A DNA stretch of 64,000 nt from positions 1,984,001-2,048,000 of the forward strand of contig NZ_JAPJDC010000001.1 of NCBI RefSeq assembly GCF_026241855.1, given 5' to 3'. Shown here piece after piece: positions 53,250-56,577 of this stretch (position 1 is its first letter; each line of letters begins with the position of its first letter). The notes under the pieces are model-generated. The model worked only from the letters and a program-made list of their open reading frames with translations. It did no database searches and was not told the origin of the DNA. Source of the DNA: Curtobacterium flaccumfaciens pv. betae. GTDB taxonomy: Bacteria; Actinomycetota; Actinomycetes; Actinomycetales; Microbacteriaceae. Made by a program: the position numbers and the translations under genes.

Positions 53250-54461
53250 TCAGACGGTCGCGGCGACGAGTCCTGCGGCGGCGCGGAGTTCCTCGACACG
53301 GTCGAGCTGCTCCCACGTGAACCCGGGGAGCTCGCGGCCGAAGTGGCCGTAGGTCGCGGTCTGCGCGTAGATCGGTCGGAGCAGGTCGAGGTCGCGGATG
53401 ATCGCGGCCGGACGCAGGTCGAACACCTGGCGGATGGCGGCCTCGATCGTGGCGTCGTCGACGTGTCCGGTGCCGAAGGTCTCGACGTAGAGCCCGACGG
53501 GCTTCGCACGGCCGATCGCGTACGCGACCTGCACCTCGAGCCGGTCGGCGAGCCCCGCGGCGACCGCGTTCTTGGCGACCCAGCGCAGCGCGTACGCCGC
53601 CGAACGGTCGACCTTCGACGGGTCCTTGCCGCTGAACGCGCCGCCACCGTGACGGGAGGCCCCGCCGTAGGTGTCGACGATCACCTTGCGGCCGGTGAGC
53701 CCGGCGTCGCCCTGGGGGCCGCCGATCTCGAAGCGGCCGGTCGGGTTCACGATGACGTCGACGTGCGACGAGTCGAGGTCGACCAGGTCGAGGACCGGAC
53801 GGATCACGTGCTCGGTGATCGCGGCGGTGAGCTCGTCGAGCGTGACGCTCGGCGAGTGCTGCGTGGAGAGCACGACGGTCTCGACGGTCTTCGGCACGAC
53901 GCCGTCGTACCCGATGGTGACCTGGGTCTTGCCGTCCGGGCGCAGGAACGACAGCTCGCCCGACTTCCGGACCGCGGCCAGGCGCTCGGCCAGGCGGTGC
54001 GCCAGCCAGATCGCGACCGGCATGTACTCGGGGGTCTCGTTCGTCGCGAAGCCGAACATGATGCCCTGGTCGCCGGCGCCCTGACGGTCGAGCGGGTCGA
54101 CCGCACCGGTGCGGGAGTCGAGCGACTCGTCCACACCCTGCGCGATGTCCGGCGACTGCGCACCGATCGAGACCTCGACACCACAGGTGGCACCGTCGAA
54201 CGAGACGTCCGACGAGTTGTAGCCGATCCCGGTGATGACGTCACGGACGAGCTTGGGGATCTCGACGTAGCCGGAGGTCGTGACCTCGCCGGCGACGTGC
54301 ACGAGCCCGGTGGTCACCATTGTCTCGACGGCGACGCGCGCGTTCGGGTCGACCGTGAGCAGTGCGTCGAGGATGCTGTCCGAGATCTGGTCGCAGATCT
54401 TGTCGGGGTGCCCCTCGGTCACCGACTCGGACGTGAAGAGGCGGAGAGCAGCTGCAGTCAC
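53250..54461 (-). CDS. metK: S-adenosylmethionine synthetase
   Basis: Makes S-adenosylmethionine from methionine and ATP. The 403-residue protein has the signature [20 protein letters not shown] region, [12 protein letters not shown], and the phosphate-binding [19 protein letters not shown]. The start is GTG at 54461, five bases after rpoZ. In many Actinobacteria coaBC lies between rpoZ and metK; it is missing here, so the coaBC gene must lie elsewhere. Confidence 0.98.
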
Positions 54462-54466
54462 CGGGA

Positions 54467-54730
54467 TCAGTCGGTGGGCTGCTGCTGCTTGGTGACGGTG
54501 AGCTTGTCCTCGTTGATCTCGTGGAGCGCGACGGACAGCGGCTTGTCGTCGATCGTCGAGTCGACGAGCGGTCCGACGTTGTCGAAGAGCGAGCCCTCGT
54601 GCAGGTCGGCGTAGTAGTCGTTGATCTGGCGGGCGCGCTTGGACGCGAAGATGACGAGCGCGTACTTCGACTCGACTTTGCTGAGCAGGTCGTCGATGGG
54701 CGGGTCGATGATGCCCTGGGGGTTGGCCAT
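54467..54730 (-). CDS. rpoZ: RNA polymerase omega subunit
   Basis: Small subunit that helps assemble RNA polymerase around the beta' subunit. The 87-residue protein starts [17 protein letters not shown] and has the family core [20 protein letters not shown], with the [11 protein letters not shown]-terminal helix, all typical for actinobacterial omega. ATG at 54730 with GAGGAGA upstream. It follows gmk after 27 bases, the conserved gmk-rpoZ pair. Confidence 0.97.
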
Positions 54731-54757: not shown

Positions 54758-55681
54758 TCAGGGCGCAGAGAACAAGTCTACGACCTCACGTGCCGCGGTG
54801 CCGACATCGGAGTTCACGATCCGCACGTCGAACTCGTCCTGGGCGGCCAGCTCGACCTTCGCGGTCTCGAGGCGACGCGCTTGTTCCTCCGCGGATTCGG
54901 TCCCGCGGCCGATGAGCCGGCGCACCAGTTCCTCCCACGTCGGGGGCAGCAGGAACACGAGCACCGCCTCGGGCATGGCGTCGCGGACCTGCCGGGCGCC
55001 CTGCAGGTCGATCTCGAGCATGACCTTCTCGCCGGCGTCGAGCGCGCGGTCGATCGGCGGGCGCGGGGTGCCGTAGCGGTACGAGTTGTGAACGGTCGCC
55101 CACTCGAGCAGCTCGCGGTCGCGGATCATGCGGTCGAACTCGTCGTCGTCCACGAAGTAGTAGTGCACGCCGTCGACCTCGCCGGGGCGCGGCTTCCGGG
55201 TGGTGGCGGAGACGCTGAGGTTGACGTCCGGGTAGTGCTGTCGGATGTGCGCGCTGACCGTGCCCTTGCCGACCGCGGTGGGTCCGGCGAGCACGACGAG
55301 CTTCGAGGCACCACGCTTGCGACCGCGGGCGGCGAGCCAGTCGGCCAGGGCCGCGCGCTGCCGGGTCCCCAGGCCACCGAGGCGCTTCGACGGTGCGATC
55401 CGCAGGGACCCCATGATCGCCTCGGCTCGCGCGGGGCCGATGCCCGGCAGGCTCACCAGCAGGTCACGGACCCGCAGCGAGCGTTCCGCCGAGGTCGTCT
55501 CGACCAGCGAGTCGTCCCACGCAGCACGGGCGACGTCGAGCGCGGAGCGCTCCCCCGACGCGATCGCGGCCTTCACCGCGGCCCGGGCGCGTCGCGCGGC
55601 CACGGCGGCCTTCGCCGCGGCGACGCGGTCGACCTCTGGCGGGGTGCGGTGGGCGGGCAGGCCCTCGTGGTCGTCGGTCAC
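54758..55681 (-). CDS. gmk: Fusion of actinobacterial integration host factor (mIHF) and guanylate kinase
   Basis: A single 307-residue frame with two domains. Residues 20-117 match mIHF, the nucleoid DNA-binding protein of Actinobacteria: [32 protein letters not shown] (helix-two-turns-helix) and [26 protein letters not shown] ending. After a 9-residue linker, residues 127-307 are guanylate kinase (GMP + ATP to GDP + ADP) with P-loop GPTAVGKG (133-140), [11 protein letters not shown], and [10 protein letters not shown]. No in-frame ATG, GTG or TTG lies between the domains upstream of the P-loop, so kinase cannot be made alone from a junction start. GTG at 55681 overlaps the pyrF stop as GTGA. 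In Mycobacterium mihF and gmk are separate adjacent genes. Confidence 0.95.
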
Positions 55682-56573
55682 GCTGCCGCCGCCAGTGCGC
55701 TGCGGATGCGATCGGCGCGGTCGGCGACGAGCGCCGCGGCACCGTCCGGACCGTCGGTCAGCAGGCCGCGCGACTCGCTCACGAGCACCTGCTCGGCACG
55801 CGCGCCGTACAGCGCACGGAGGTCCTCGATGCGAGCGCCCTGGGCACCGAAGCCCGGTGCGAGGACCGGCGCGGTGCCGATCGCGTCCGCGTCGATGCCG
55901 AAGTCGTCGAGGTGAAGGGTCGCGCCGAGCACGAGCCCGACGTCGCCGAGGGCCTGATCGCCCACGGACCGGTTGTCGTCTGCCACGTCCAAGACGATAC
56001 CGGCCGCGACCGTCCGGCCGGTACGCGGTCCCTCGGCGAGCACCGCGGTCTGCAGCACCCGGGCCTCGGGGTTGCTCGTCGCCGCGAGCACGAAGACCCC
56101 GGCACCGTTCCGGCGCGCGACGTCGATCGTGCCCCGGAGCGAGCCGTACCCGAGGTACGGCGACACGGTCATCGCGTCGGCCGCGAACGGCCCGTCGCGG
56201 TCGAGCCACGCGAGCGCGTAGTCGTCACCGGTGGTCCCGATGTCGCCCCGCTTCACGTCGGCGACGACCAGGAGGCCCGCATCGCGTGCCCGGCGGATCG
56301 TCGCGTCGAGCGCACGGTAGCCCGCAACCCCCGCCGCCTCGAAGAAGGCGACCTGCGGCTTCACGATCGCCGCGCGGCCGGCGGCCGCGTCGACCAGCGT
56401 CGCGCCGAATGCCGTGAGGCCCTGCTCGTCGCGGGCGAGCCCCCACGCCGCCAGGGTGGCGGCGTGGGGGTCGATCCCGACGCAGAGCGGTGAACGCTCC
56501 CCCATGGCGGACGCGAGGCGGTCGCCGAAGGAGGCCGGGCCTCCCGACCGGGGCGTGTCCACGATGGCAGCCG

Positions 56574-56577
<4 letters not shown>
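55678..56577 (-). CDS. pyrF: Orotidine 5'-phosphate decarboxylase
   Basis: Last step of UMP synthesis. The 299-residue protein is the longer actinobacterial type: [28 protein letters not shown], and the catalytic Lys/Asp in [12 protein letters not shown] (Asp107, Lys109). The start is GTG at 56577, overlapping the carB stop as GTGA. Confidence 0.97.

Follow-up and report, generated by a model that had tools for sequence, protein, structure and literature searches.

An mIHF-type DNA-binding domain joined in frame to guanylate kinase in Microbacteriaceae, an apparently undescribed and recurrent fusion

The nucleoid protein mIHF (Rv1388) of Mycobacterium tuberculosis and its counterpart sIHF (SCO1480) of Streptomyces coelicolor belong to the family recognised by the profiles NF041260 and PF22525. 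According to two sources (PMC10028186, PMC6155035), mIHF is essential in mycobacteria and ranks among the most abundant M. tuberculosis proteins, the cause of its essentiality being left unsettled; the second of these also reports that in M. tuberculosis mihF has gmk, for guanylate kinase (Gmk), and rpoZ on its downstream side. In other Actinomycetota mihF and gmk commonly form a separate pair, with an intervening stop and two protein products. In the window analysed here, a stretch of 64,000 nucleotides from Curtobacterium flaccumfaciens pv. betae (contig NZ_JAPJDC010000001.1), the same two genes occur in the same order and on one strand, but in a single frame: a gene of 307 codons on the minus strand (54758..55681, GTG start at 55681), delimited by translation of open reading frames and by domain profiles, encodes an mIHF/sIHF-type domain followed by a guanylate kinase. 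We favour, with a probability of about 0.7, the reading that this is one bifunctional protein, in which an active Gmk is fixed 1:1 to a DNA-binding domain of low specificity. The two families are known, but their recurrent fusion is apparently undescribed: no paper on it was found in the open-access literature, most subscription papers lying outside that search, and three mIHF papers (PMC10028186, PMC3724605, PMC6155035) nowhere use the word 'guanylate' in their main text.

The NCBIfam profile actino_IHF (NF041260) covers residues 18–114 of the predicted protein (55340..55630, minus strand) at 75.5 bits against a cut-off of 60, and guanyl_kin covers residues 127–304 (54770..55303, minus strand) at 217.7 bits against a cut-off of 160.45. 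Pfam places H2TH_5 at residues 69–113 and Guanylate_kin at residues 126–305, and PF22525 matches at 53 bits against a cut-off of 27. Residues 115–126 (55304..55339, minus strand) form a short basic linker. An earlier reading, made from the letters alone and referred to below as the sequence-only reading, had claimed a full mIHF domain and a full guanylate kinase in one frame across such a linker, and this is borne out by both profiles scoring above their curated cut-offs. Translation of both strands yielded the fusion frame from the minus strand and no such protein from the plus strand. Precomputed Pfam annotations of matched proteins show the two domains together, and the NCBIfam type of actino_IHF is equivalog_domain; named relatives are annotated as plain guanylate kinase, and the fusion therefore matters for annotation.

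The structure prediction for the fusion is confident and matches both the sIHF–DNA structure and that of M. tuberculosis Gmk; the N-terminal domain has the fold seen in the sIHF–DNA complex, and the C-terminal domain is a guanylate kinase by profile as well as by fold. The predicted template modelling score (pTM) is 0.67, and the interface between the domains is not firmly placed. In a structural alignment taken from the VIA-align list, the kinase part shares 50–51% identity with M. tuberculosis Gmk (PDB 1znw). Ten positions of the P-loop and of substrate binding (G133, G138, K139, S156, R162, R165, Y174, E193, Y203 and D225) are invariant in all 23 family fusions aligned, and the C-terminal part is most likely the active Gmk of the cell. 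It resembles described bacterial guanylate kinases (TIGR03263/PF00625; 1znw) in its complete kinase domain with P-loop and substrate residues, and differs from them in a 126-residue N-terminal extension bearing a DNA-binding-type domain. That extension in turn is like mIHF and sIHF in domain, fold, core basic residues and position before gmk, and unlike them in its in-frame join to Gmk, in the replacement of the third Arg of the motif RR-x-R-GLG, and in having no recognised free copy.

When 120 Microbacteriaceae genomes from 78 genera were searched with the whole fusion protein, a survey that the sequence-only reading had proposed, both domains were matched in a single frame in 115. The fusion that it had described is real in this genome, but that scope was too narrow, the join being family-wide and recurring elsewhere. 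With both domains in one frame in so many genomes, and with a start at the pyrF overlap common to two genomes of the same genus (L003 and L004, with ATG at the equivalent position), the notion that chance, a sequencing error or a mis-annotated start has joined two genes is so improbable that we regard it as ruled out. The other five genomes (G064 and the small-genome G009, G085, G011 and G087) gave matches to Gmk only, and neither the whole-protein query nor NF041260 recognised mIHF in them. Their kinase gene lies between pyrF and rpoZ in all five, as judged by eye and confirmed by profile in one (L048). On a tree of the Gmk domain with 96 rows, loss of mIHF needs three changes, one of them forced by well-supported branches. 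The fusion looks ancestral to Microbacteriaceae, and the mIHF part has probably been lost more than once within the family. Where the fusions have the mIHF domain, the kinase of G064 (L046) has an Ala/Thr/Pro-rich N-terminus, some 75 residues long if translation starts at MTPSD.

The sequence-only reading had also called for a search for a stand-alone mIHF. With the N-terminal 122 residues of the fusion as query, a single place was matched in the window's own genome (3.78 Mb, completeness 100), and no second mIHF was recognised there by this query or by the NF041260 profile. Across the 120 family genomes NF041260 matched the fusion in 115 and scored above its cut-off in 109. A further weak match was seen once each in 29 of the 120 (E 4.7e-4 to 0.0092), mostly to profile positions 50–101 and in frames of 128–192 residues; most of these are probably not second copies of mIHF, two of that kind in other lineages being ribosomal protein S13, an identity established for those two matches. 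The weak matches in G094:C18, G100 and G112, which have a span unlike the rest, and a weak mIHF-like stretch (E 7.4e-5) in a frame of 876 residues at L051 (G052:C70) are still candidates. A Clavibacter proteome table (PMC7839047) lists a 10-kDa 'integration host factor' with no sequence; it may be an HU protein and was not used. Every mIHF recognised in the Microbacteriaceae sampled is attached to a housekeeping enzyme, which imposes a ratio of 1:1, and some members are without it.

Purifying selection acts on the mIHF part. Among nine close pairs within the family, the ratio of nonsynonymous to synonymous substitution rates (dN/dS) is 0.127–0.303 for the mIHF part, compared with 0.046–0.206 for Gmk; of two pairs in a second fused family, f39, one is near saturation (0.202 for mIHF, 0.084 for Gmk) and the other undefined. 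All 44 family fusions compared have R30, R33, K37 and Q108 unchanged, and basic residues are conserved at positions 30, 33, 37, 99 and 100, some of which may contact DNA. The mean net charge of the mIHF part, +8.0 in fusions, compares with +7.6 in 30 separate mIHFs. Basic residues are mostly lost in family fusions at positions 25, 41, 68 and 83 and gained at 24, 45, 88 and 111. At residue 102, the third Arg of RR-x-R-GLG, the window has Gly where M. tuberculosis and S. coelicolor have Arg; we take this Arg to be R173 of M. tuberculosis mIHF, which is reportedly needed for DNA binding. Whether the DNA-binding residues survive had been raised by the sequence-only reading, and the outcome is divided: the core basic residues and the charge are kept, and the third Arg is replaced. 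Because of this combination DNA binding is likely, though perhaps altered; in all likelihood the mIHF part continues to bind duplex DNA, at low specificity.

Separate mihF and gmk genes were compared at 30 loci, a class that required both genes within the 3–4 kb fetched, the loci having been picked in part for matches running across a stop. At all 30 mihF precedes gmk on the same strand, with a median of 23 nucleotides between the stop of mihF and the Gmk domain, and at 16 of them the two genes share a reading frame. A single lost stop, or a slight shift of frame, would be enough to join the two genes, and the fusion most likely arose in place, as the sequence-only reading had supposed. From an ancestral operon pyrF-mihF-gmk-rpoZ with mihF and gmk adjacent, loss of the mihF stop, or such a shift, probably produced the single frame in or before the Microbacteriaceae ancestor.

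Outside the family, counts at the level of order, class and phylum are among the matches listed, with part of the first-look candidates scored; families f4 and f19 and some others were checked separately. In the order sample (198 genomes, 15 of them of the family), each two-domain match listed outside Microbacteriaceae is interrupted by one or two stops, and a match in G191 that ran into the end of mIHF without a stop proved on closer inspection to be a separate mihF/gmk pair. Among the matches listed for the phylum sample (149 genomes) there was no uninterrupted fusion besides the window's own. The class sample (246 genomes) contained fusions in all 23 genomes of f39, which is probably Nanopelagicaceae, in frames of 291–321 and mostly 291–297 residues, and in both genomes of genus g212 (family f45). 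A search of 118 genomes from the order of the g212 genome G472, none of them of f39, gave nine fusions: four of four in g212, four of ten in g223, and one of 15 in f48, the last in a genome (G546) that is 85% complete. Genus g223 (among L212–L221) holds fused and separate states together and would suit a study of fusion and fission. At L068/L072 (G150) and L116 (G473) gmk is divided between two frames or matched just in part, perhaps through frameshift, divergence or assembly error. Two f19 loci, L069 (G238) and L070 (G211), go against the usual adjacency of mihF and gmk: each has mIHF, but no Gmk match adjoins it or is listed elsewhere in that genome. At L061–L063 (f4) and at several f45, f49 and f22 loci, outside Microbacteriaceae, Gmk stands without mIHF next door.

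The number of fusion origins was estimated from trees, all of a quick kind. Ninety-six loci were classified; rows left out were repeats of one place, L051, the broken or partial gmk loci (G150, G473), three f4 loci, which resemble those kept, and L069 and L070 of f19. Removal of 14 near-duplicate family rows (from 83 to 69) gave a 69-locus tree of the concatenated domains, on which fusion needs three changes; the approximately unbiased (AU) test rejects the grouping of all 39 fusions in one clade (p 0.0051), and does not reject one fusion clade of Microbacteriaceae plus f39 (AU p 0.237). We nevertheless keep these two apart because of support values of 93 and 99 in the Shimodaira–Hasegawa-like approximate likelihood ratio test (SH-aLRT) and because they belong to different orders. 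A 67-row tree, with 12 loci added and 14 other family rows removed, needs six changes, three of them forced by starred branches; here a long-branched family row (L033) falls outside Microbacteriaceae. With the Gmk domain alone (96 rows) the family fusions are not one group (four changes). Our reading of these trees is at least two origins, and probably three to five.

Were the fusion cleaved, or the kinase also started internally, the joined frame would couple synthesis only. The linkers are short and variable among fusions and short throughout the family, which would be compatible with cleavage, though no common cleavage motif was seen in them by eye, without a formal test. Of 53 fusions, 14 have no start codon near the junction and 45 have no ATG there; in favour of internal starts, eight have an ATG, and a Shine–Dalgarno (SD)-like match of five or six in six precedes a junction start in nine of the 53, compared with 31 of 53 near the N-terminus, where the stretch scanned was longer. 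No junction start is conserved across all 53, and in three genomes of the window's genus (L002–L004) there is no in-frame ATG, GTG or TTG between a point 12 residues ahead of the mIHF profile end and one two residues past the start of the Gmk profile, which confirms for that genus what the sequence-only reading had stated. We judge two separate products unlikely and a single, intact cellular protein most likely.

It is also unlikely, in our estimation, that the mIHF part has ceased to bind DNA and survives as a decaying relic or as an appendage that helps Gmk to fold or stay soluble, the nucleoid being served by HU and Lsr2. HU was found in ten of ten genomes tested, including all five family genomes without mIHF; Lsr2 was found in two, the window's own (five places, on G000:C1 and C2, one of them on the second contig) and G064 (one place), and not in the remaining eight. 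Several observations weigh against a bifunctional protein, and two of them, the replacement of the third Arg and the family genomes without mIHF, also lean towards a relic. Residue 102 is neither Lys nor Arg in 52 of 53 fusions (55 of 60 when seven more, read by eye, are added), compared with five of 30 separate mIHFs. The ratio of mIHF to Gmk rates, in the bin of Gmk distances 0.3–0.4, is 1.57 in family fusions against 1.35 for separate genes, the value in f39 fusions being 1.31. The mIHF part is dispensable in that five of the 120 family genomes keep Gmk without recognised mIHF, an Ala/Thr/Pro-rich tail standing instead in one; the SD-like match before the window's own fusion start is four in six; and no experiment on such a fusion protein was found in the open-access literature. 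The third Arg does not define the family, however, since five of the separate mIHFs lack it too, and its link to fusion is partial, since four fused g223 loci (L212–L215) retain it; its loss was accordingly discarded as a mark of every fusion, and a tree-aware sign test of loss against fusion found three pairs, too few for significance. Purifying selection, the invariant basic core with its constant net charge, and retention in 115 of 120 genomes all speak against decay. On the favoured reading of one bifunctional protein, mIHF and Gmk would be synthesised at a fixed ratio of 1:1, and Gmk molecules would associate transiently with the nucleoid through the mIHF part.

A stronger proposal, that DNA binding is coupled to the kinase so that mIHF senses the state of the nucleoid or brings Gmk to places where GTP is consumed, with a regulatory role for the fusion, seems to us doubtful. 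The join has recurred in two lineages at least and probably in three or more, and it has long been retained, which suggests that it is either tolerated or of advantage, and family linkers remain short; but neighbouring genes of an operon can become joined with no consequence for regulation, Gmk persists in genomes lacking a recognised mIHF, and the pTM of 0.67 leaves the interface loosely placed. Inhibition of Gmk by (p)ppGpp is reported from several phyla but not Proteobacteria (PMC6783271), and PMC5686395 describes it as evident in most actinobacteria, which favours coupling, and reports no such inhibition of M. tuberculosis Gmk, which does not. The sequence-only reading had seen a hint of a (p)ppGpp role in the neighbouring rpoZ; this fell away, the arrangement being ordinary and seen in M. 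tuberculosis too (PMC6155035), so that it adds no evidence for such a link. Equally conjectural, and improbable as matters stand, is that the join was selected repeatedly, the GMP-to-GDP step being tethered to the chromosome both in Microbacteriaceae and in freshwater actinobacteria resembling Nanopelagicaceae, with DNA occupancy tuning guanine nucleotide supply or guanine nucleotides tuning nucleoid binding. The fused, separate and lost states offer natural contrasts for what mIHF does and for whether the nucleoid can be home to a nucleotide kinase; with a predicted chromosome protein carried by an enzyme needed for GTP synthesis, it becomes testable whether nucleotide supply is linked to the chromosome.

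The fusion gene lies among minus-strand neighbours. Upstream is pyrF (55678..56577; TIGR02127, 263.3 bits), whose stop is overlapped by the GTG start of the fusion by four bases; downstream are rpoZ, for the omega subunit of RNA polymerase (54467..54730; TIGR00690, 70.7 bits), and then metK (53250..54461; TIGR01034, 553 bits). In small-genome relatives coaBC comes after rpoZ (by profile match in L048, by eye in the others); in the window the gap between rpoZ and metK (54461–54467) is without it, and coaBC lies elsewhere in the same genome (G000:C1:2683146-2684390).
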